Below, piece after piece: positions 16,395 through 43,180 of a stretch of 64,000 nucleotides of DNA; the stretch's first letter is position 1, and every line of letters starts with the position of its first letter. The notes below the pieces were generated by a model. The model ran no database searches, was not told the origin of the DNA, and worked only from the letters and a program-made list of their open reading frames with translations. The stretch is from Sphingobacteriales bacterium 44-15 (lineage in GTDB: Bacteria > Bacteroidota > Bacteroidia > Chitinophagales > Chitinophagaceae), in the NCBI GenBank assembly GCA_001899685.1, contig MKWG01000043.1, forward strand, positions 533,498 to 597,497, read 5' to 3'. Both the position numbers and the translations under genes were made by a program.

Positions 16395-17399
16395 TTATTT
16401 GCCGCTCATGGTATACCGTTTCATGCTGATCACTGCGCTCTTACTGCCATTGTTTACAGAATTGAAATAAATATAAGCCCGGTATTTTCCATCGCTGGTT
16501 TCCGCCCAGACTCCTGCTTCCGCTTTTAAATTAATAGCAAAGTCGGGGGCGTTGGAAAGGTCGAGCTTTTCAAAATCAAGGTCATCAATATAAATACCAT
16601 ATTGAGATTGCGCCAGGTTATAATCCTGCAGGTTGAACACCTTCTGTACTTTAGTGCTTTTATTCACACCGGCAGGCAGATCCACTCCCGGCAGGTATTG
16701 CGCATCTGCAGCGGGAGACACCAATGCATGGTTAAAAATGACATCCGGATCTGCATAGTAAACGTATACAAGGTCGATCTTATCCGGATTGGCAGCAGCG
16801 CCTGCCTCATCATATACCTTCATATCGGCGATAGAAATATAGGCTGCGGCTCCATTGCTTACATTGAGCTTGCGTACCATATCCATAGTGGCAATAGTAT
16901 AGGGCCCCATTTTGTAGGAAACGGTCTCGCCATCATCGCTTTTAGCAGAAAATGTAAACGACACCTGCTTACCACGGGCTTCTTCAGGAATGACATAATA
17001 ATAACGAAGCGTCGCAGCGAAGGTATCCACATTATAAGTTACCGATGTAGTATTCCCGCTGGTAACGGAAGGTTCCGCTACCGGCACACCAACATCCTGC
17101 CCGCTGCCATTGGTATAGTAGGCATTGTTTTCGAGATAAGTGCCGTTTGCACCTGCAATAGAAGCTTCCACCTGGGCAGAGACCAGCTTACCTTTTTCAG
17201 GCAGGATCGCCATAGCATAAGCAAACTCTATCTGCTGTCCCACAATATTGGGCCCCAGCGTACGCTTGATCACATCATTCTGCAAAACATCTTTGGGAAC
17301 AGGAAGTGCATACTCTTCTTTTTTACAACCGGCAAGAAACAACCCTGCTGCCAGCGCCGGTAATATTGATTTGCGGAATATTTTTGTATGTAGCATCAC
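16395..17399 (-). CDS. Surface lipoprotein, DUF4466-like
   Basis: Lipobox LFLAGCKKEEY; position directly after SusCD and small lipoprotein. Confidence 0.6.
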   Translation of the reverse strand: MMLHTKIFRKSILPALAAGLFLAGCKKEEYALPVPKDVLQNDVIKRTLGPNIVGQQIEFAYAMAILPEKGKLVSAQVEASIAGANGTYLENNAYYTNGSGQDVGVPVAEPSVTSGNTTSVTYNVDTFAATLRYYYVIPEEARGKQVSFTFSAKSDDGETVSYKMGPYTIATMDMVRKLNVSNGAAAYISIADMKVYDEAGAAANPDKIDLVYVYYADPDVIFNHALVSPAADAQYLPGVDLPAGVNKSTKVQKVFNLQDYNLAQSQYGIYIDDLDFEKLDLSNAPDFAINLKAEAGVWAETSDGKYRAYIYFNSVNNGSKSAVISMKRYTMSGK

Positions 17400-30329: not shown

Positions 30330-31508
30330 TTAATCATAATGTTTATTCTTTACACACCTGAAGCCGGTGTGTTCCAGTCCGGTGTCCGGGCTGCTCTTCA
30401 TGCGGCGCGCTGCACGATAACCACTGCAGTAACCGTCGTTACATAAAAAGCTACCGCCCCGCAGGCTGCGTTTTAATGTGTAGGGTTCCTGCGAATCGTA
30501 TGACTCTTCAGGTCCCTGCGGGTTTACAATCAGCTTTCCTTCCAGTTGTTTATAATAGTTGCTATTGTATAAGTCGCTGCACCACTCCCATACATTGCCT
30601 GCCATATCGTATAAGCCATAGCCGTTGGGCCGGAACGATCTTACAGGAGCCAGTTTCAGGAAACCATCTTTACGGGTGTTCAGGTAGGGAAATTTTCCCT
30701 CCCAGCTATTGGCTTTGGGGGTTCCTTCATTTATATGCTCGTTGCCCCAGGGATAAATATTATTGACCAGTCCGCCGCGGGCGGCAAACTCCCATTCAGC
30801 TTCTGTTGGCAGCCGTTTGCCGGCCCATTTGCAATAGGCCTGTGCATCGTACCAGCTTACCTGCACCACCGGGTAGTTATCTTTCCCTTCGATGCTGCTG
30901 CCGGGACCTTCGGGGTGCTTCCAGTCGGCGCCTTTTACCCAGCTCCACCACTGGCTGTAATCATTTAGGTCAACAGGTCTGTTTGATTGCCTGAATACCA
31001 GTGAGGCAGCCACAAGCAGGCTGTCAGGCGGTTTAGGAGTACCTGGCGGTAATGTTTTTTTCAGCTCGTCCCAATCAGGCTTTTTTTCGGCAGTAGTTAC
31101 ATAACCTGTGGCTTCAACAAATTTCCTGAATTGAGCATTGGTCACTTCGGTGACATCAAGATAAAAAGGAGAAATCCGCACCTTATGTTTGGGATACTCA
31201 TCAGGAGCGGCCTGGTCATTATCGCCGCCCATATCAAACTCTCCGCCGGGTATCAGCACCATACCCGCCACAGTGCTGTCCCGTCCGGATGCTACCGGAG
31301 AAATATCGGCAGGGGCAAAGCGTGCAGGTGTTTTCATGCAGGAATGAATGGTATCCGGCTGGGGAGAATCAGTCCTGACCGGAGCCGGGTGTGCATTACC
31401 GGAACAGTTAAGAAGATCAGCCAGGAAAAAAAAGGAAAGGATTTTTACGGACAAAAACAGCAATTTCTTCTTTTTAAAATGCTCCCGGATATTGTGAATC
31501 TTACTCAT
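30330..31508 (-). CDS. Formylglycine-generating enzyme (FGE-sulfatase / SUMF1 family)
   Basis: GMVLIPGGEFDMGGDN, LPTEAEWEFAARGG, GLYDMAGNVWEWCSDLY, active-site-like Cys pair GGSFLCNDGYCSGYRAARR. Confidence 0.94.
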   Translation of the reverse strand: MSKIHNIREHFKKKKLLFLSVKILSFFFLADLLNCSGNAHPAPVRTDSPQPDTIHSCMKTPARFAPADISPVASGRDSTVAGMVLIPGGEFDMGGDNDQAAPDEYPKHKVRISPFYLDVTEVTNAQFRKFVEATGYVTTAEKKPDWDELKKTLPPGTPKPPDSLLVAASLVFRQSNRPVDLNDYSQWWSWVKGADWKHPEGPGSSIEGKDNYPVVQVSWYDAQAYCKWAGKRLPTEAEWEFAARGGLVNNIYPWGNEHINEGTPKANSWEGKFPYLNTRKDGFLKLAPVRSFRPNGYGLYDMAGNVWEWCSDLYNSNYYKQLEGKLIVNPQGPEESYDSQEPYTLKRSLRGGSFLCNDGYCSGYRAARRMKSSPDTGLEHTGFRCVKNKHYD

Positions 31509-31568: not shown

Positions 31569-31641
31569 AAGGTGCCGACTGGAATTGAACCAGTGTAACA
31601 GCTTTTGCAGAGCTGCGCCTTACCGCTCGACCACGACACCT
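31569..31641 (-). tRNA. tRNA-Cys(GCA)
   Basis: Reverse complement AGGTGTCGTGGTCGAGCGGTAAGGCGCAGCTCTGCAAAAGCTGTTACACTGGTTCAATTCCAGTCGGCACCTT; anticodon GCA. Confidence 0.95.
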
Positions 31642-31853
31642 TATTTTTTATCAGCACGATAAACTGCATCGAAATTTATATGGTTGTACAAAACCATTTA
31701 CCTTTTTATAGCAGGAGGAATGGTATACAAAAAACAGGCCCTCATAGATATGAAGGCCGCTACCAAAACTAACTGCTTATGAAATCGTTTTTTACAATAT
31801 GGTGAGAAATATCATCTCAGCGTATCCAGTGCAAATGTAAATCAATACTATTA

Positions 31854-31872
31854 GTCTACAAAATTTATAGAC
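31854..31872. promoter_or_regulatory. 19-bp palindromic operator candidate, copy 1
   Basis: GTCTACAAAATTTATAGAC; TACATTTG -7-like box at 31890..31897. Confidence 0.6.
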
Positions 31873-31917
31873 TATATATTTTTTACACGTACATTTGTAA
31901 AACTTCAAACGATATAT

Positions 31918-32235
31918 ATGCGATCCATCATTAAAAATATATTTTGGGTATTGCTCACCACAGTGCTCCCCGCAAATGGTGAGAGATCTTTTCAGGGACA
32001 CGCTGTAATATCAGGCACGGTGCTGCAGGAAAACCTGAAGCCGGTTGAAAAATGTTACCTGTACATCATCCCCGGAGAAGAAGAGGCTATCAGCGATAAA
32101 GATGGGAAATTTACTATAAACACCTGGCAGCCCTTTCCCCTGACGATTAATGCAGAGCATATCCGGTATAAAAAACAGGACATAAAAATTGACAAACCTG
32201 CAAAGGATATTATTGTGAAGCTTGAACTCAAATGA
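31918..32235 (+). CDS. Small secreted protein with carboxypeptidase-regulatory-like domain
   Basis: VISGTVLQENLKPVEKCYLYIIPGEEEAISDKDGKFTINTWQPFPLTINAEHIRYKKQDIKI. Confidence 0.7.
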   Translation: MRSIIKNIFWVLLTTVLPANGERSFQGHAVISGTVLQENLKPVEKCYLYIIPGEEEAISDKDGKFTINTWQPFPLTINAEHIRYKKQDIKIDKPAKDIIVKLELK

Positions 32236-32332
32236 CCAAAGCGGGTTTGCCTGCTACAGGCTCAGGTAAACAGCAGGATGATGCATAAACAACGGAGTTG
32301 ATGTATTTGAGAATATAATAATAAAATTAATT

Positions 32333-32351
32333 GTCTATAAATTTGATAGAC
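32333..32351. promoter_or_regulatory. 19-bp palindromic operator candidate, copy 2, overlapping the -33 box of the SusC-B promoter
   Basis: GTCTATAAATTTGATAGAC; TTTG 32342..32345, 20 bp, TATATTTG 32366..32373. Confidence 0.65.
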
Positions 32352-32413
32352 TAATAACACCTATATATATTTGCACATCTTTTTAATCCAGGTACTTTCT
32401 TTTAATTACTATT

Positions 32414-32521
32414 ATGACCGAAAGGATAACATACGATTTCCATTCAACAGCGACTATCCCGGGCGTTATTGACAGCCTGGTGTCAGGCAGCGAACGATGT
32501 CCCATGCATGGGACCAAATAA
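32414..32521 (+). CDS. Short leader ORF (35 aa) upstream of SusC-B
   Basis: MTERITYDFHSTATIPGVIDSLVSGSERCPMHGTK, starts about 41 bp after the predicted -7 box. Confidence 0.3.
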   Translation: MTERITYDFHSTATIPGVIDSLVSGSERCPMHGTK

Positions 32522-32625: not shown

Positions 32626-32662
32626 AAAAAAAATGACCGGCATCGTTGCACCGATGCCGGTC
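32626..32662 (-). terminator. Minus-strand-oriented intrinsic terminator in the SusC-B leader
   Basis: 11-bp perfect stem GACCGGCATCG/CGATGCCGGTC, followed on the minus strand by ATTTTTTTT. Confidence 0.6.
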
Positions 32663-32744: not shown

Positions 32745-35700
32745 ATGAAAAAAGTACTATATATTAGTTTAGTACTAACAATAATAACACCTTTTTACAG
32801 TAAGGGACAGAATGAACCTAAACCTGTCATTAACTCTATAGTAAAAGGCCATGTGGCCGATTCAGTAAGTAAGCTTCCTTTGGCCAAAGTGTCTGTTCAG
32901 ATCAAAGGAATAACCAATGGTACCGCAAGTGATAATAACGGTGCATTCACTTTGTATACGGCTCAAAGATTTCCGTTTACCGTAGTGATAACCAGCGTTG
33001 GCTATGAAGCGAAAGAAGTAATAGTCTCAGGCTCTCCGATTAATGTATTGCTGAAGCCGGTTTCCGGCCAGTTGGAGGATGTGGTGGTAGTGGGGTACGG
33101 TACGCAAAAGCGGAGTGATCTCACCGGCGCCGTTGCGTCCATTCCTACCCAGGCATTGACCCAACAGGTCAGCTCTTTTGAACGTGTTCTTCAGGGCTCG
33201 GTATCAGGGGTACAGGTAACCCAGGTCTCCGGGCAACCGGGAGCGGCTGTAAGTATCCGCATACGGGGTGGCAATTCCATTACTGCCGGTAATGAGCCTC
33301 TGTACGTTATTGACGGGTTTCCCATTTATAACGATAATAATGATGCCAGCGCCGGCGTAGCCAGTGGCCCAAACATCAATGCGCTGGCCGGTATAAATCC
33401 AAGCGACATTGAATCAATAGATATCCTAAAGGACGCATCGGCTACCGCCATTTACGGCTCCAGGGGAGCCAACGGCGTGGTAATAGTAACTACCAAACGT
33501 GGTAAAGCCGGCAGAAATGTTGTAAGCTACGATGGTTCTTATGGCGTGCAACAGGTTAGCAATACCGTTGATGTGCTTACAGATTCCAAACAGTGGGCGT
33601 TGTTAAAGAATGATGCCCGTGTAAATGCCGGAAAAGCGCCCTACTATACCGATGAACAGATAGCGCAGCTTTCCGGGGGAACAGATTGGCAAAGCGCCGC
33701 CTTTAGAACCGCTCCTGCTCAAAATCATCAGCTAACGATATCGGGAGGCGATGATAAAACCCATTATGCTGTTTCAGGAAATTACTTTAAACAGGAAGGC
33801 GTATTGCTGAACACGAATTTTGAGCGTTTTTCCGGCCGTTTAAATTTTGACCGCCAGGTATCATCTGCCTTCAAAGTAAGCGCCAATTTTACGGCAAGCA
33901 AAACAAGCGCCAAAATAGCCGACAACAGTCTTGTGAGCTTTTTACTGCTAATGCCTCCAACCGTATCCATAAGAGATGCTAACGGTGAATATACCTATCA
34001 GAGCGAGTTTGAAACACCATTAGGTAACCCTATTGCCACTCTGGCAGAAGAAACCAATCAAAGCAACACCAACAGGATATTAGGCAATGTATTCGGAGAA
34101 TACCAGATCATAGACGGCCTCACAGCCAAAGTTTCCATTGGGGCGGATATTATTAATAATAAAGAGAACCGGTATATCCCGACTACGGTATACCAGGGCG
34201 CCAACACCAATCAAACCGGGACGGCAGCCGTTGGAGCCAAGGTAGCATCGTCATGGCTTAATGAAAACACTTTAACATATATAAAGAAGCTTGGAGAAAA
34301 TCATCTCCTTAATGCCGTGGTAGGTTTCACACAGCAGGCATTCCGGGCCGAATATGTTACTGCCGGTTCACAAGGCTTTAGCACAGAGCAGTTAACTTAT
34401 AATGACCTTGGCGCCGGTGTTGTTTACACGAAACCCACTTCAGGCTCATCCGAGTGGGCGTTGAAATCATTCCTTGGAAGGGTTAACTATACGCTTAATG
34501 ATAAATATTTATTTACCATTACTGCCCGTGCAGATGGCTCATCCCGGTTTGGGGAGGATCATAAATGGGGCTATTTTCCATCAGCAGCTTTTGCCTGGAA
34601 TCTCAGTAAAGAAAACTTCATAAAACTGCCTGAAGCTGTTAACAGTTTAAAACTTCGCATAAGTGCGGGATTGACAGGCAACCAGGAGATCGGGGTATAC
34701 CAGTCGTTAGCTACACTTGCAAATAACAACTATTTTTTTGGAGGCAATGCAGTGATCGGCTACTCTCCTAACCGTATTGGCAACTCCGGTTTGGGCTGGG
34801 AAACTACGGCGCAATATGATGCAGGTATTGATATTTCTCTGTTCAATAATCGTGTTACGCTAACGGTAGACGGATACTACAAAAAGACCACAGACCTATT
34901 GCTGGATGTGCCTCTCCCCTATACTACAGGGCAGGCCACCGCCTTACAAAACTATGGAACAGTCTCCAACAAAGGACTGGAATTTGCGCTGAATACCCGG
35001 AATATCCGCGGGGTTTTTAACTGGAATTCAGGACTGGTTTTGTCATTGAACCGAAACAGGATACTGAGCCTGGGCGATGGTGTTGAAAATATTATTTCGG
35101 GTGTGAGCATTGCCCAGGTTGGCCAGCCGTTAGGCTCATTTTATGGTTTAAAAACCAATGGGATCTTCCAACTGACTGATGACATTGCCCACCTGCCGGT
35201 ATATTTAACCAAAAATCAGCCCGGCGACCAACGTTACATAGACAAAGATGGCGACGGTACTATTACCGCTACAGGCGACCGTTTTCTTATAGGCAATGCC
35301 CAACCCGGGTTCCTCGGAGGGTTTACCAATAATTTTTCATACAGGAGTTTTGACCTGAATATCTTTTTCCAGGGGTCGTACGGCAGCAGGATATTTAACC
35401 AGAATAAACAGCAGCTGGAAATATTGAGCGGGCAGCAAAATGCATCGGTAACCGCTTTGGACCGGTGGACACCGCAAAACCAGGAGAATGTAATACCCCG
35501 GGCTTATGAAGATCCGGCGGCAGTAAATTCAGACCGTTATATTGAAGACGGCTCTTACCTGCGCCTGAAAACCCTGGTGCTCGGTTATACGCTTCCATTA
35601 AGATTTGTGTCAAGAGCCTATGATACCAGGATCCGGTTTTATTTCTCTGCGCAAAACCTGGTAACCTGGACCAAGTATACCGGTTACGACCCCGAGGTAA

Positions 35701-35795
35701 GCAGGAACGGTCAAAGCACATTGACACAGGGCATTGACTATGCAGTTTACCCCAATGCTAAATTATTTACGGGAGGCGTAAATATCACATTTTAA
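32745..35795 (+). CDS. SusC/RagA-family TonB-linked outer membrane protein
   Basis: GHVADSVSKLPLAKVSVQIKGITNGTASDNNGAFTL; DVVVVGYGTQKRSDLTGAVASI; start at MKKVLYIS. Confidence 0.95.
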   Translation: MKKVLYISLVLTIITPFYSKGQNEPKPVINSIVKGHVADSVSKLPLAKVSVQIKGITNGTASDNNGAFTLYTAQRFPFTVVITSVGYEAKEVIVSGSPINVLLKPVSGQLEDVVVVGYGTQKRSDLTGAVASIPTQALTQQVSSFERVLQGSVSGVQVTQVSGQPGAAVSIRIRGGNSITAGNEPLYVIDGFPIYNDNNDASAGVASGPNINALAGINPSDIESIDILKDASATAIYGSRGANGVVIVTTKRGKAGRNVVSYDGSYGVQQVSNTVDVLTDSKQWALLKNDARVNAGKAPYYTDEQIAQLSGGTDWQSAAFRTAPAQNHQLTISGGDDKTHYAVSGNYFKQEGVLLNTNFERFSGRLNFDRQVSSAFKVSANFTASKTSAKIADNSLVSFLLLMPPTVSIRDANGEYTYQSEFETPLGNPIATLAEETNQSNTNRILGNVFGEYQIIDGLTAKVSIGADIINNKENRYIPTTVYQGANTNQTGTAAVGAKVASSWLNENTLTYIKKLGENHLLNAVVGFTQQAFRAEYVTAGSQGFSTEQLTYNDLGAGVVYTKPTSGSSEWALKSFLGRVNYTLNDKYLFTITARADGSSRFGEDHKWGYFPSAAFAWNLSKENFIKLPEAVNSLKLRISAGLTGNQEIGVYQSLATLANNNYFFGGNAVIGYSPNRIGNSGLGWETTAQYDAGIDISLFNNRVTLTVDGYYKKTTDLLLDVPLPYTTGQATALQNYGTVSNKGLEFALNTRNIRGVFNWNSGLVLSLNRNRILSLGDGVENIISGVSIAQVGQPLGSFYGLKTNGIFQLTDDIAHLPVYLTKNQPGDQRYIDKDGDGTITATGDRFLIGNAQPGFLGGFTNNFSYRSFDLNIFFQGSYGSRIFNQNKQQLEILSGQQNASVTALDRWTPQNQENVIPRAYEDPAAVNSDRYIEDGSYLRLKTLVLGYTLPLRFVSRAYDTRIRFYFSAQNLVTWTKYTGYDPEVSRNGQSTLTQGIDYAVYPNAKLFTGGVNITF

Positions 35796-35821: not shown

Positions 35822-37282
35822 ATGAAGAAGCTATTTTATTTATTCGCTGTTACGTTGATCCTGGTGTCCTGCACTAAGCTGGAGGAAACCCCAGATTCAA
35901 TTTTAACAACCGGACAATTCTATAAAACCCAGGCAGATGCCATCGCTGCGGTAAACAGTATTTACCAGGCTGCATTAAACCCCGGCGGACTTAAAATGTA
36001 TAACCGCCTTTTCCTCCAGGTAATCGAATACCCGACCGATGACGTTATTGCCGGGCAACGGGTTACCGAAATAGCCGCCAGGGAATTGTCTGCCATGACA
36101 CAATCCACTTCAAATCTCCGGATCGAACAATTATGGCAGCAGCATTATACTGCCATTGACCGTGCCAATATTGCTATCGACAACATTCCATCTATTGATA
36201 TGGATCCCACACTGCGTACCAGGCTTGTGAACGAAGCTAAGTTCCTGCGTGGCTTACTCTATTTTAATCTGGTAAGACTGTGGGGAGAAGTGCCTTTGAT
36301 CCTGCACCAAACCACATCGCTGGGCAAGGATGCCATACAGGTAAAAAGAGATTTGACGGAAAATGTGTATGCACAGGTCATTGCCGACCTGACCGATGCT
36401 GAAAAACTGCCGGCAACGTACGGAGCAGCAGATGCCGGCCGGGCCACCGGTGGCGCCGCTAAAGCCATTTTGGCAAAATTATATCTTACCAGAGAAGAAT
36501 GGGGGAAGGCATCTTCCAAAAGCCTGGAAGTAATACAAGGCCCGTATGGATATGCGTTATTTGACAAGTACGCAGATGTATTTAATGTAGCCACTAAAAA
36601 CGGCAGGGAGCATATTTTTTCAGCCCAGTGCCAGGGCGAGGGAGGCAATGATCAGGGTAACCGTATGGGCACTTCCTGCACACCTGTAGGTATTCCCGGT
36701 ATTGCCGCCGCCGGAACGGATGAGCCTACTGAAGACGCTTACAACATTTTTGATGCCAATGATACCCGCCGGGATGTTACGTTTTTCACCTCCCTGGTAA
36801 GTCCCAAAGATGGTAAAACTTATACATTCGCTCCGCATTTCCGTAAATACTGGGATCAATCAACCATTACCAACCCTACCAAATCAAACCAGAATGTTCC
36901 GGTGATACGCTTTGCGGAAGTATTATTGATTTACGCAGAAGCCCTGAATGAGGAAAATCATGGTCCTACCCCGGAAGCTTACAATGCTATTAACCAAGTG
37001 ATCAGAAGAGCCTATGGCAAGCCGGTCAATATACCGGATCCTACGGTTGACCTGGCTGCTTTGGATTACAGTAGTTTCAAAGAGGCGGTTTACTTACAGC
37101 GACGTAAAGAGCTGATGCTTGAATTCCAGCGATGGTTTGACCTGGTCAGGACTGGGCGCATGATCACCGAAACGCATAAAGTAGGCAAAAGCAACGCATC
37201 AGAAAGAAATTACCTGTTGCCTGTGCCGCAACATGACATTGATCTGAACCCGGCATTGCTTCCCAATAACAAGGGATGGTAG
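35822..37282 (+). CDS. SusD/RagB-family lipoprotein
   Basis: LILVSCTKLEETPDSILTTGQFYKTQADAIAAVNSIY; RFAEVLLIYAEALNE; RRKELMLEFQRWFDLVRTGRM. Confidence 0.95.
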   Translation: MKKLFYLFAVTLILVSCTKLEETPDSILTTGQFYKTQADAIAAVNSIYQAALNPGGLKMYNRLFLQVIEYPTDDVIAGQRVTEIAARELSAMTQSTSNLRIEQLWQQHYTAIDRANIAIDNIPSIDMDPTLRTRLVNEAKFLRGLLYFNLVRLWGEVPLILHQTTSLGKDAIQVKRDLTENVYAQVIADLTDAEKLPATYGAADAGRATGGAAKAILAKLYLTREEWGKASSKSLEVIQGPYGYALFDKYADVFNVATKNGREHIFSAQCQGEGGNDQGNRMGTSCTPVGIPGIAAAGTDEPTEDAYNIFDANDTRRDVTFFTSLVSPKDGKTYTFAPHFRKYWDQSTITNPTKSNQNVPVIRFAEVLLIYAEALNEENHGPTPEAYNAINQVIRRAYGKPVNIPDPTVDLAALDYSSFKEAVYLQRRKELMLEFQRWFDLVRTGRMITETHKVGKSNASERNYLLPVPQHDIDLNPALLPNNKGW

Positions 37283-37528: not shown

Positions 37529-38887
37529 ATGAAAACAAAAGCGATAGTTCTGTATAGCCTGCTTATTCTTGCAGGATATGCACGGGTAAATGCCCAGGCT
37601 TCAGCACCACAGCGGCCGCCCAATATTATTCTCATCCTGGCAGACGACATGGGCAAAGAATGTATCGGCGCTTACGGAAGCACCTATAACACGCCCAATA
37701 TAGATCAGCTTGCGCGGGAGGGACTGAAATTTAATTACGGATTTTCTCAACCATTATGCACTCCTTCACGGGTACAATTAATGACCGGGCAATACAACTA
37801 TAAAAATTATGTAGAATTTGGATACCTGGATCCCTACCAGAATACCTTCGCCCATTTAGCAAAAAAGGCGGGCTACGTAACCGCTATTGCCGGGAAATGG
37901 CAATTAGGTTTCAACAATAAACTGCCTGCACATTTTGGGTTTGATCATTATTGCCTCTGGCAGTTGTCTTACAAACGAAGTGACGGAGAGCGTTATGCCA
38001 AACCGCTTATTGAACGAGATGGTGTAACACTCCCATCGTCCAATGACGATTATGGCCCGGATATTTTTACAGATTACCTGCTGAACTTTATTGAACAGAA
38101 CAAAGACAAAAAGTTCCTGGCTTACTATCCTATGGCCCTGGTACATGATCCATTCCAATCTACTCCCGACAGTAAACGCTGGAACGATGATGTCCCGGGA
38201 AGATTTAAGAATGACACCGCTAACTTCAGGGATATGGTGGCTTACAGTGATAAAAATGTGGGCCGGATCATCGGGAAACTAAAGGCCCTGGATTTATACG
38301 AGAATACCATTATCATTTTCACCGGCGATAACGGTACCGGCAGGGCTATTATCACCCCATTAAAAGACGGAACTACCATTAAGGGCGGCAAAGGGCTCAC
38401 GGTAGACCGCGGAGACCGTGTCCCCCTGATCGTGAACTGGGGAACAGGACGGTATGTCCGGCATGAAACAGATGATCTGGTGGATTTTACAGATTTCCTG
38501 CCTACCATCGCCGACGCTATCGGGCAGCAGATCCCTAAAGCGTGGGATGCAGACGGCAACAGTATCTACCCACAGATAAAAGGTGAAAAAGGACATCCAC
38601 GGAAATGGATCTTTACGCACTATAATCCGCTTCATTCTGAAGAGATCAATAAGCAGGCTGCCCGCTTTTTCCGCGATCACCGCTATAAGCTCTACCAGGA
38701 TGGACGGTTTTACGACCTGGTAAAAGATCCGGAAGAAACCAACCCGGTTGCTGAAGGCAATGGTACACCGGAGGCCGAGCTGGTACGCAAAACATTTAAA
38801 CGGGAATTTGCCAAACTGCCCGCATGGAAACCCGGCGACCCGGGTAAGCCAAAGCGGGAATACCCCGGGCTGGAAATTAAAAAGTAA
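37529..38887 (+). CDS. Secreted Cys-type sulfatase (S1 family)
   Basis: PNIILILADDMGKECIGAYG; FGly motif CTPSR in QPLCTPSRVQLMTGQ. Confidence 0.93.
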   Translation: MKTKAIVLYSLLILAGYARVNAQASAPQRPPNIILILADDMGKECIGAYGSTYNTPNIDQLAREGLKFNYGFSQPLCTPSRVQLMTGQYNYKNYVEFGYLDPYQNTFAHLAKKAGYVTAIAGKWQLGFNNKLPAHFGFDHYCLWQLSYKRSDGERYAKPLIERDGVTLPSSNDDYGPDIFTDYLLNFIEQNKDKKFLAYYPMALVHDPFQSTPDSKRWNDDVPGRFKNDTANFRDMVAYSDKNVGRIIGKLKALDLYENTIIIFTGDNGTGRAIITPLKDGTTIKGGKGLTVDRGDRVPLIVNWGTGRYVRHETDDLVDFTDFLPTIADAIGQQIPKAWDADGNSIYPQIKGEKGHPRKWIFTHYNPLHSEEINKQAARFFRDHRYKLYQDGRFYDLVKDPEETNPVAEGNGTPEAELVRKTFKREFAKLPAWKPGDPGKPKREYPGLEIKK

Positions 38888-38976
38888 TAATATAACTGCC
38901 CGCTGTAACTACATTCGGTTGTCGCAGCAACTCTGGTGCAGAGTAAATGTATATGACAATATCTAAAACACGCATT

Positions 38977-41316
38977 ATGGAATCGAAACTAAGGTTCACT
39001 ACGAAAAAAGTATATACATCGCTTATAATTATAATAGCGGTAATTCAGGCAGGCTACGCACAATACAGTCCGCAGCAACCGTTTAAAGGCGTTATGGGCA
39101 AAACGCTTGAAGAATCTGTTCCTTACAAAATTGAATACAATAAAAAGGCGGCGCCCGGAGCTCCCAATGTGGTATGGATACTGATTGACGATGCCGGTTT
39201 TGGCGCTACCAGCGCATTTGGCGGATTAGTAGAAACACCTAATATCGAAAAGCTGGCCAATAACGGGATACGTTTCAGTAATTTTCATACAACAGCTATC
39301 TGCTCGCCAACAAGGGCGGCCTTATTAACCGGCCGCAATCATCATTCGGTTCACGTAGGTATGTTAACTCCCGCTGCAAAAGATTTTCCCGGATACGACA
39401 CACGGATGCCTTTTGAAAAAGCAACCATCGCGGAGATACTTCGCGAAAACGGGTACAATACCTTTGCCGTTGGGAAATGGCATTTAACACCGGTAGCAGA
39501 GAATTCGCAGGCCGGGCCGTTTAACCGCTGGCCCACAGGCAGGGGGTTTGATCACTTTTACGGTTTTCTGCCGGGAGCCACAGACCAATGGCATCCTGAA
39601 TTATGGGAAGACCAGACCAGGCTGGATATTGAGCCTAATACCACTCACCTGAACCAATTGCTGGCGGATAAAGCTATAAAGTACATTGCCAATCAAAAAT
39701 CAGCAGCTCCCGATAAGCCTTTCTTCCTGTACCTGGCAACCGGCGCCACTCATTCGCCGCACCAGGTGGCTAAAGAATGGATCGATAAATACAAGGGCAA
39801 ATTTGATTTTGGTTGGGATAAGTACCGCGAATCAGTTCTTGAGCGCCAGAAAAAGCTCGGTGTTATTCCCGCCAATGCCATATTGCCTCCAAGGAACCCG
39901 GGCGTTAAGGCATGGGATTCCCTGTCGGCCAAAGAGAAACAGGCATTTGCTCATTTCATGGAAGTATATGCGGCCTTCTATTCCTATACCGATCATGAAA
40001 TTGGCCGTATCGTAAACTATCTCGACCAGATTGACCAGTTGGACAATACGCTGATCGTATTAGTGCTGGGCGATAACGGAGCAAGCAAAGGCGGCACCCA
40101 AACCGGAACTGTTAACGAAGCCATCAACCAGCTAAAAGGCGAAGCAAAGATAGATGCTATTCTAAAGTCCCGCGATATCATCGGCACAGATGAGTCAAAC
40201 ACCGATTATCCCGTGGGATGGGCAATGGCCGCAAACACACCTTTTAAATACTGGAAAACAGATGCTAATTCCGAAGGCGGTACACACAGCCCGCTGATCA
40301 TTTACTATCCAAAAGTAATTAAAGATAAAGGCAGCGTGAGGAACCAGTATGGCCACGTAATTGATATTTTGCCAACTACACTGGAACTGGTACACGGGCA
40401 GATCCCCGAAGTGATCAATGGCTACAGGCAGGATTCCGTTGAAGGAACGAGCCTTGCTTATGCGGTCAGTCAGCCCGCGGCTTCATCGCGGCATACTGTA
40501 CAGTACTACGAAATTTCCGGGTCAAGGGCAATCTACAAGGACGGGTGGAAAGCTGAGACCTGGCATACCCAGGGTGCAGGTTTTGATAAAGACGTATGGG
40601 AGCTTTACAACCTGGATAAAGATTTTAACGAGCTGCACGACCTGGCGTCCGGCCGGCCTGAAAAGCTGCAGGAGCTGCAACATGTATTTGACGAAGAAGC
40701 CCGTAAATACAACGTTTACCCGTTAAAGGACTTTACAACGGCTAAGCTGGCCCAGGGCCGCAGCATTTACAGCTATCAATCAGATATTACACTTTATCCC
40801 GGAGTAGATAACCTGGTAGGCGTAAGCACACCGGTCTATAACGGAAAATCATTTGTTGTAACGGCAGAAACAGTCATCCAATCAGGAAAAGAAGAAGGTG
40901 TTCTGTTTGCTATAGGCGGAGAAAAAAGCGGTATCAGTCTCTTTATCAAGGATGGCAAATTCCAGTATGCCCACAAGGCCGACAACAAAACTGACTACCT
41001 CATTGCCGATAAACCCATCCCCACAGGAAGGGTCAGCTTTAAGCTGGAATATAATTTTACCAATGCAGGCGGGCCAAACGATATTGCCGGAACAGAAACC
41101 ATTTTTATCAATGATCAGAAAGTCGGGCAAAGAAGTCTCACCAAAAAGCAGGCCCGTATTGTAAGCTCCAATCGCACTGATGGAACAGATGTGGGCCGTG
41201 ATCTGCACAGCGTTGTATCTGATAAATATCAAAGCCCGTTCAACTTTACCGGGAAGATCAGGAAAGTAACCATCAAATTTTTGCATGACTCAGAAAGCGC
41301 AGCTTCTGACGATTGA
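38977..41316 (+). CDS. Arylsulfatase (Cys-type, AtsA-like) with C-terminal extension
   Basis: APNVVWILIDDAGFGATSAFGG; FGly motif CSPTRAALLTGRNHH; start chosen at MESKLRF. Confidence 0.93.
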   Translation: MESKLRFTTKKVYTSLIIIIAVIQAGYAQYSPQQPFKGVMGKTLEESVPYKIEYNKKAAPGAPNVVWILIDDAGFGATSAFGGLVETPNIEKLANNGIRFSNFHTTAICSPTRAALLTGRNHHSVHVGMLTPAAKDFPGYDTRMPFEKATIAEILRENGYNTFAVGKWHLTPVAENSQAGPFNRWPTGRGFDHFYGFLPGATDQWHPELWEDQTRLDIEPNTTHLNQLLADKAIKYIANQKSAAPDKPFFLYLATGATHSPHQVAKEWIDKYKGKFDFGWDKYRESVLERQKKLGVIPANAILPPRNPGVKAWDSLSAKEKQAFAHFMEVYAAFYSYTDHEIGRIVNYLDQIDQLDNTLIVLVLGDNGASKGGTQTGTVNEAINQLKGEAKIDAILKSRDIIGTDESNTDYPVGWAMAANTPFKYWKTDANSEGGTHSPLIIYYPKVIKDKGSVRNQYGHVIDILPTTLELVHGQIPEVINGYRQDSVEGTSLAYAVSQPAASSRHTVQYYEISGSRAIYKDGWKAETWHTQGAGFDKDVWELYNLDKDFNELHDLASGRPEKLQELQHVFDEEARKYNVYPLKDFTTAKLAQGRSIYSYQSDITLYPGVDNLVGVSTPVYNGKSFVVTAETVIQSGKEEGVLFAIGGEKSGISLFIKDGKFQYAHKADNKTDYLIADKPIPTGRVSFKLEYNFTNAGGPNDIAGTETIFINDQKVGQRSLTKKQARIVSSNRTDGTDVGRDLHSVVSDKYQSPFNFTGKIRKVTIKFLHDSESAASDD

Positions 41317-41341: not shown

Positions 41342-43180
41342 ATGAGAGAACAACTGACACTACACAGCACATGGATCAAATTGTTGCTTTTTGCCTTTGT
41401 TGTACTAAGTACGCAGCAAAGCTATGCACAGGATGACCAGCCATACCAGGGCGTAGCGGGGAAGACCCTGGCCGAATCAAAGGAATGGTGGCCTAAACAA
41501 GTAAAAGCGCCAAAAGGGGCTCCCAATATTGTATGGATCTTATTAGACGATGTAGGCTTCGGCGCCTCCGGTACTTTTGGCGGGCTGATCAACACTCCTG
41601 TTTTCGACAGCCTGGCCAACAACGGGATCCGGTACACCGATTTCCACGATGCCGGCATATGCGCTCCCACGCGGGCAGCTTTGCTTACCGGCCGTAACCA
41701 CCACTTTGTAACTGAAGGCGGATTTTCACATAAAAGCAATTCTGCCGGTTTCCCGGGATGGTTCGGGCGCATACCGGCCAAAGATGGTACTATCGCAGAA
41801 ATACTGCGTTCATACGGTTACAATACCTTTGCCGTTGGCAAGTACGGTTTAACACCGGATGAGGAAGCTACAGATGCAGGGCCCTTTGATCGCTGGCCTA
41901 CCGGGAAAGGCTTTGAGCATTTTTTTGGATTTCTGGAATCGGCCACAGATCAGTATAAGCCAAACCTGGTTGAGGACAACACGCACATTAAGCCCGACGG
42001 CAGGCATTTAAATGCCCAGATAACCGATAAGGCCATTGAGTATATCAGCAAACAAAAAAAAGCGGCCCCGGACAAACCGTTCTTCCTGTATTATGCTCCG
42101 GGAGCAACCCACACTCCTCACCAGGTAGGTAAAGAATGGAGCGACCTTTATAAAGGAAAATTTGACGAAGGATGGGATGTGTACCGGGAAAAAACATTAG
42201 CCAATCAAATTAAACTGGGACTTGTACCGGCAAATGCCAAACTGCCCGACAGAAACCCGAACGTGAAAGCATGGAATACCCTGAGCGCTGATGAAAAACG
42301 TCTCTATGCCAGGTTTATGGAAGTTTATGCCGGATATTTAACGTATACCGATCATGAGATAGGCCGGGTGATCAACTACCTGAAAAGTATTAACCAGTTA
42401 AACAACACGCTCATATTCCTCATTATTGGCGATAACGGCGCTACCAAGGAAGGCGGCTTTTATGGGGCTATTAACAAAAATCCCATCCGCAACTATTCCG
42501 GCGATTATTTCAAAGAGAATCTGGCTGATATTGATGTAATAGGCACCCCTGAAGGTCATCATACCAGTTACCCTATCGGGTGGTCGCAAGCTGCCAATAC
42601 ACCGTTTAAATACTGGAAAAATGATGCCAATGCCGAGGGCGCTACACATACACCACTGGTTGTCTTCTATCCCGATAAGATCAGGGAAAAAGGCGGTATA
42701 CGTAATCAATATGGCCATGTTATAGATCTGCTGCCCACCACGCTGGACTTTATCGGACTGAAAGCACCGGCAGAAATACGTTCGGTAAAGCAGGATACCC
42801 TGCAGGGCATTTCCTTATACTATTCGGTATTTAATAAGGATGCTTCTTCCCGGCATAATACCCAATATTACAGCATATTCGGATCCAGGGCCATCTATCA
42901 CAACGGCTGGAAGGCGGGTGTTTTTTATCATCCCACTCAAATTGATTTCCTAAGAGATCATGACGCGGCGCTTACTAATAAATATGATAACGACCAGTGG
43001 GAATTATATAATCTCAATAGCGACTTTAATGAGCGGACAGATCTAGCAAAAAAATATCCTCAAAAGCTGGAAGAGCTTAAAAAAGTTTTCGAAGAAGAGG
43101 CAAAGAAAAATAACATCTATCCCCTGATCGGTTGGGATGATATTTACCAGGGCAAGGTTCACAAAAACTTTGCGGACTAA
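41342..43180 (+). CDS. Arylsulfatase (Cys-type, AtsA-like), paralogue lacking the C-terminal extension
   Basis: APNIVWILLDDVGFGASGTFGG; FGly motif CAPTRAALLTGRNHH. Confidence 0.93.
   Translation: MREQLTLHSTWIKLLLFAFVVLSTQQSYAQDDQPYQGVAGKTLAESKEWWPKQVKAPKGAPNIVWILLDDVGFGASGTFGGLINTPVFDSLANNGIRYTDFHDAGICAPTRAALLTGRNHHFVTEGGFSHKSNSAGFPGWFGRIPAKDGTIAEILRSYGYNTFAVGKYGLTPDEEATDAGPFDRWPTGKGFEHFFGFLESATDQYKPNLVEDNTHIKPDGRHLNAQITDKAIEYISKQKKAAPDKPFFLYYAPGATHTPHQVGKEWSDLYKGKFDEGWDVYREKTLANQIKLGLVPANAKLPDRNPNVKAWNTLSADEKRLYARFMEVYAGYLTYTDHEIGRVINYLKSINQLNNTLIFLIIGDNGATKEGGFYGAINKNPIRNYSGDYFKENLADIDVIGTPEGHHTSYPIGWSQAANTPFKYWKNDANAEGATHTPLVVFYPDKIREKGGIRNQYGHVIDLLPTTLDFIGLKAPAEIRSVKQDTLQGISLYYSVFNKDASSRHNTQYYSIFGSRAIYHNGWKAGVFYHPTQIDFLRDHDAALTNKYDNDQWELYNLNSDFNERTDLAKKYPQKLEELKKVFEEEAKKNNIYPLIGWDDIYQGKVHKNFAD

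Follow-up and report, generated by a model that had tools for sequence, protein, structure and literature searches.

CymR, a member of the Rrf2 family, is the master repressor of cysteine metabolism in Bacillus and Staphylococcus, and to our knowledge it carries no four-Cys cluster of the kind described below. IscR and NsrR belong to the same family and hold a Cys-bound Fe-S cluster; NsrR operators are odd-length palindromes with an 11-1-11 layout, and IscR activates transcription at suf in E. coli, where it is docked beside sigma at the -33 region. Cys-type sulfatases are activated by the formylglycine-generating enzyme (FGE). In PULs of the SusR, HTCS or ECF-sigma type, a SusC/SusD pair occurs with carbohydrate-active enzymes. 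Family 2A encapsulin (SrpI) with a cysteine desulfurase is induced by sulfur starvation and has been described mainly for a cyanobacterium (PMC8049743).

The locus analysed here lies in a 64-kb window (the whole stretch of DNA under analysis) of Sphingobacteriales bacterium 44-15. The genome belongs to the Chitinophagaceae. The locus resembles the PULs above in its SusC/SusD pair with carbohydrate-active enzymes, here sulfatases, and differs from them in that its operator is a global one for sulfur, a local regulator is missing and the operon has no glycoside hydrolase. The genes and RNA elements are as follows.

30330-31508, minus strand: FGE/SUMF1-type formylglycine-generating enzyme (Pfam PF03781, E=4e-84)
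31569-31641, minus strand: second, divergent tRNA-Cys (GCA)
31737-31758, minus strand: terminator-like hairpin with a T-run, between promoter and tRNA-Cys (from folding)
31918-32235, plus strand: small CarboxypepD_reg-like protein, 105 aa, with homologs downstream of operators in loci L061, L092 and L134 of relatives
32414-32521, plus strand: possible leader peptide, MTERITYDFHSTATIPGVIDSLVSGSERCPMHGTK
32635-32662, plus strand: strong 11-bp hairpin in the susC 5' UTR
32745-35795, plus strand: SusC (start at ATG 32745 preferred to TTG 32646)
35822-37282, plus strand: SusD
37529-38887, plus strand: sulfatase 1 (CTPSR)
38947-41316, plus strand: sulfatase 2 (CSPTR)
41342-43180, plus strand: sulfatase 3 (CAPTR)

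The three sulfatases are all of the CxPxR type and are therefore expected to depend on FGE. Neither a glycoside hydrolase nor a regulator turned up among the genes from 31.9 to 43.2 kb; for the regulator, the preliminary description had already stated this of its "PUL-B". Since no glycosidase accompanies the three FGE-dependent sulfatases, and with a maturase and a sulfur operator present, this gene set is likely a sulfur-scavenging locus; in the simplest reading its function would be the release of sulfate from sulfated glycans in sulfur starvation. The hairpin at 31737-31758 is a possible attenuator. The hairpin at 32635-32662 has a T-run on the minus strand and could end an antisense RNA. 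A separate PUL at 46-59 kb of the window contains SusC/SusD, fucosidase-like and beta-helix proteins and an ECF sigma/FecR pair (57-59 kb), and no sulfur operator was found in it.

Two 19-bp palindromes, at 31854-31872 and 32333-32351, had been described as matching each other at 16 of 19 positions, and this was confirmed, with all pairs but one palindromic in each when the centre is set aside. When the joint pattern was searched in the window with up to 3 mismatches, 4 strand matches were obtained against 0.11 expected, and none of 100 shuffled sequences reached 4. The conserved unit is longer than the 19-mer, namely a 23-bp operator with the pattern TAGTCTAY-N7-RTAGACTA. The operators and the promoter elements around them are listed below.

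31852-31874, strandless: operator 1, TAGTCTACAAAATTTATAGACTA (19-bp core 31854-31872; PWM 35.6 bits)
31859-31861, minus strand: -33 TTG within operator 1
31832-31839, minus strand: -7 box TACATTTG of the canonical operator 1 promoter, 12 bp after the 23-mer, towards tRNA-Cys and FGE
31890-31897, plus strand: -7-like box TACATTTG, 15 bp after the 23-mer, with no -33 TTG, towards the gene at 31918
32331-32353, strandless: operator 2, TTGTCTATAAATTTGATAGACTA (19-bp core 32333-32351)
32342-32345, plus strand: -33 TTTG within operator 2
32366-32373, plus strand: -7 box TATATTTG of the susC operon promoter

The -7 boxes earlier reported at 31890 and 32366 were both found, together with the TTTG at 32342, 20 bp ahead of the second box. 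The proposal that one regulator controls the gene at 31918 and the SusC/SusD/sulfatase operon held in part. Operator 2 has a canonical promoter for SusC/SusD and the three sulfatases, but the best promoter of operator 1 faces tRNA-Cys and FGE, two genes missing from the preliminary description which lie in the direction of its minus-strand promoter. The 12-bp gap between operator 1 and this -7 box, likewise new, is exactly the canonical distance. For the gene at 31918, the 15-bp spacing and the lack of a -33 TTG speak against it as a target, while homologs of the small gene recur downstream of operators; the box at 31890, with its off-consensus spacing, appears to be a weaker or secondary promoter. 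The small secreted CarboxypepD_reg-like protein recurs between the operator and tRNA-Cys or sulfur genes (window, L061, L092, L134).

The same geometry was seen across loci. In 28 unique promoters, TAnnTTTG began 11-13 bp past the operator, at 12 bp in 19 of them, and the control had no such peak; this -7 consensus is the one mapped in Flavobacterium (PMC9723704). At the place of the -33 element within the operator, 24/28 promoters carried TTG on their own strand and 1/28 on the opposite one (sign test, 2e-7), the operator being symmetric save where the -33 would fall. The distance from operator to -7 box is constant because the -33 TTG is built into the operator. In several loci, a second form of the operator lay over the -7 box or the start site.

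Further copies, whose absence would have spoken against a shared regulator, were present both in this genome and, conserved, in relatives. Sites in the own genome were used when they had 0-2 mismatches or a promoter context, and weaker ones were not counted because the reversed control was richer than the motif at three mismatches; looser matches (up to 2-3 mismatches) were rejected as mostly chance, the reversed control giving more of them. Six perfect GTCTAY-N7-RTAGAC sites occur in 6.0 Mb: two in the window, three on contig 38 ahead of a TonB receptor gene and one on contig 15 ahead of a PhyH-SDR gene pair, with a family 2A encapsulin and its cysteine desulfurase cargo about 3 kb downstream of the last. 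A pair of sites with two mismatches on contig 7 adjoins a cystathionine-lyase-like gene and a SusC/TlpA operon, both of which also carry SAM riboswitches, and on contig 2 a site with two mismatches immediately precedes the gene of a YeiH-type (PF03601) transporter. A weak operator of 11.0 bits lies over the start site of the own sulfate-assimilation operon (cysH, cysD, cysN, cobA, reductase, cysG).

Among 61 relatives, the strict 23-mer gave 34 forward matches, all of a single family, and its reversed pattern gave 0, and a further motif scan gave 27 stretches, nearly all from Bacteroidota and in majority from Chitinophagaceae. Genes adjoining the sites, mostly named from their translations with selected ones confirmed, were cysH, cysD, cysN, cysI, cysG, siroheme synthase, OAH sulfhydrylase and peroxiredoxin, as well as sulfatases, TonB receptors, tRNA-Cys and the family 2A encapsulin with cysteine desulfurase cargo. 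Conserved copies thus stand at functionally linked genes in other genomes, and these sequence comparisons support the view that both palindromes are operators in a genome-wide sulfur regulon of one regulator. In a strict scan across the phylum the exact 23-mer was present in 3/247 other genomes, so that no phylum-wide regulon with this exact operator is claimed; two of the three lie outside Chitinophagaceae: in one the site precedes the same peroxiredoxin gene, in the other a Cupin_8/JmjC-like gene, which also follows an operator in L072. A fatty-acid hydroxylase/sterol-desaturase-like gene was seen after operators in L050, L058 and L092 (Pfam-confirmed in L092), for which a link to sulfur lipids is possible.

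The regulator had been called unknown. A protein of the Rrf2 family encoded outside the locus is now a strong candidate from synteny, co-occurrence and enrichment.

Contig 11, 120096-120494, minus strand: Rrf2-family candidate regulator, 134 aa

The candidate scored above the Rrf2 cut-offs (PF02082, 119.6 bits vs 30; TIGR00738, 106 vs 73) and has four conserved Cys in the arrangement C-X8-C-X2-C-X4/5-C (PCVSL..Y.RC..C-DE..C). Its assignment to the family by sequence is firm. Rrf2 genes in relatives were gathered without regard to the motif. The 15 loci so chosen held 10 operators of at least 14 bits against 0.05 expected, and 32 control loci, of which 30 were tRNA-Cys pattern loci, held none of that score. 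In sister genera, Rrf2 was found at the head of sulfate-assimilation clusters with operators, namely in G034 (L133), G016 (L134), G032 (L135) and G019 (L132); the own ortholog on contig 11 adjoins dapB, as in G019, and this dapB-Rrf2 synteny links both genes. This Rrf2 (at least 112 bits) was present in 15/15 motif-bearing genomes and the motif in 0/22 genomes without this Rrf2 (Fisher, 0.0004, relatedness ignored). The strict motif was absent from many genomes carrying this Rrf2, and the own Rrf2 gene lacks both an operator and neighbouring sulfur genes. The regulator of the operators is probably this Rrf2-family protein. The genome encodes a second Rrf2 on contig 43, next to hemerythrin/RIC-type genes; it was taken to be NsrR-like and left aside. 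A literature search, in which most subscription papers were out of reach, turned up no useful account of an Rrf2-controlled sulfur regulon in Bacteroidota.

The candidate resembles CymR in the Rrf2 fold, with sequence matches to PDB 2y75 and 3t8r, in a sulfur/cysteine regulon with operators at cys and other sulfur genes, and in the likely occlusion of promoters. It differs in its operator, its phylum, its targets (sulfatase PUL, tRNA-Cys) and its four conserved Cys, and its 65 bits lie far below the equivalog cut-off of 195 (NCBIfam NF047409). By sequence it would work like CymR without being filed as CymR. With IscR and NsrR it shares the Rrf2 winged helix and a Cys-rich loop, and with NsrR also the odd-length palindrome of 11-1-11 layout as operator; its regulon, in contrast, is sulfur assimilation rather than Fe-S assembly or NO, and its scores fall far below their equivalog cut-offs (63 vs 207.6 and 43 vs 182). 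Its four conserved Cys are possible cluster ligands, at a spacing other than that of IscR. A further likeness to a known system is that operators precede the shell and cargo genes of family 2A encapsulin, both in this genome and in relatives; that system was described mainly for a cyanobacterium, and the regulator put forward here is a proposed one.

The operators, their common regulon, the promoter geometry and the Rrf2 synteny are present in the DNA as such, and from them we infer that Rrf2 binds and that it represses instead of activating, as well as the signal it answers and the part of the locus in scavenging. With good confidence, we propose that a cysteine/sulfur-responsive Rrf2 repressor occludes the -33 element at both operators. 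When sulfur or cysteine is plentiful, an Rrf2 dimer on the 23-bp site would cover the -33 and block sigma-A RNA polymerase; in starvation it would be released and two divergent units would be transcribed, the left one with tRNA-Cys and FGE and the right one with SusC/SusD and the three FGE-dependent sulfatases. Candidates for the effector are cysteine, Fe-S state, O-acetylserine and a CysK partner. The left transcript would read through the terminator-like hairpin at 31758-31737 to tRNA-Cys and FGE. The products of the locus would take up sulfated glycans and strip sulfate from them for assimilation.

Repression by occlusion suits the finding that regulator and sigma share the same bases. The same regulon and the same Rrf2 protein could also work by activation, docked next to sigma at the -33 region, which we consider unlikely: the operator is centred at about -36 and its distance to the -7 box, which varies very little over the 28 promoters, is also expected of a class II activator, but the embedded -33 TTG explains that distance, and operators over the -7 box or the start site in several loci fit repression only. 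Quite unlikely, in our judgement, is a sulfur regulator of another family, with Rrf2 as a mere neighbour in cys operons. The lack of Rrf2 autoregulation and an Rrf2 clade wider than the strict motif would agree with it, but on inspection of ORFs Rrf2 was the sole recurring regulator in operator-bearing clusters, the lone HTH gene in L134 resembles a toxin-antitoxin insertion, and operators were strongly enriched in loci chosen by Rrf2.

The SusC/SusD genes downstream, and the ECF sigma/FecR pair of the neighbouring PUL, would suit a reading in which the palindromes are local sites for a PUL regulator that responds to a glycan, of the SusR, hybrid two-component or ECF sigma type. We hold this to be very improbable, since the same operator stands at tRNA-Cys, cys and encapsulin/desulfurase loci, none of them glycan-linked, and neither a regulator gene nor a glycoside hydrolase was found in the 31.9-43.2 kb interval; the regulon serves sulfur and not a glycan. 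That the palindromes are chance inverted repeats of an AT-rich stretch has practically no probability left. The core is indeed AT-rich, but the counts in the window and in relatives refute a chance origin, and the position of the operator relative to promoters is conserved. The Rrf2 repressor thus stays the preferred reading.

A further layer of control may lie in the leaders. Short ORFs with adjacent Cys codons followed 10/28 promoters vs 3 in the control, some of them extreme, such as ...HCCCCCCC in L182. Cys-rich short leaders (RCCCRQATY, CCCC, CCCCCCC) were noted just downstream of operator promoters in L004, L038, L056, L059, L066, L084 and L182. One also precedes the own OAH-sulfhydrylase gene (L100, about 17050-17105), whose 5' region contains a SAM riboswitch. 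The susC leader is structured (z -2.75), and the small ORF within it has a single Cys (RCP). In addition to operator control, attenuation at Cys codons is plausible.

The genome has a housekeeping tRNA-Cys on contig 15 besides the divergent second copy in the window, and divergence is also seen in those tRNA-Cys copies of relatives that lie near operators. A second tRNA-Cys gene under the sulfur operator was observed in the window and in L061, L067, L092, L095, L149 and L033. U33 was lost in 6 of 16 operator-near tRNA-Cys and U73 in the same 6, with the cloverleaf kept, and a seventh (L053) parsed poorly; those away from sites had U33 and U73 in 22/22, a comparison biased for U33 because the housekeeping search pattern contained T33. 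The tRNA-Cys of the window retains both bases and, by its sequence, looks functional. Only tentatively, as a rather doubtful idea, we suggest that in Chitinophagaceae a second tRNA-Cys class is driven by the sulfur regulon, and that those of its members which lack U33, a base for decoding, and U73, a base for Cys identity, may be non-translating RNAs, for example ones that sense cysteine supply or act as decoys or processing signals for it. If true, operator, tRNA-Cys and Cys-rich leaders would form a three-layer cysteine control not described before.

In conclusion, a family of Bacteroidota gains a sulfur regulon with a readable operator and a named candidate for its regulator, in which a tRNA-Cys gene becomes a member of a nutrient regulon. 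The prediction is that some sulfatase PULs would be switched by the need for sulfur and not by a glycan, which would alter the reading of sulfatase loci.
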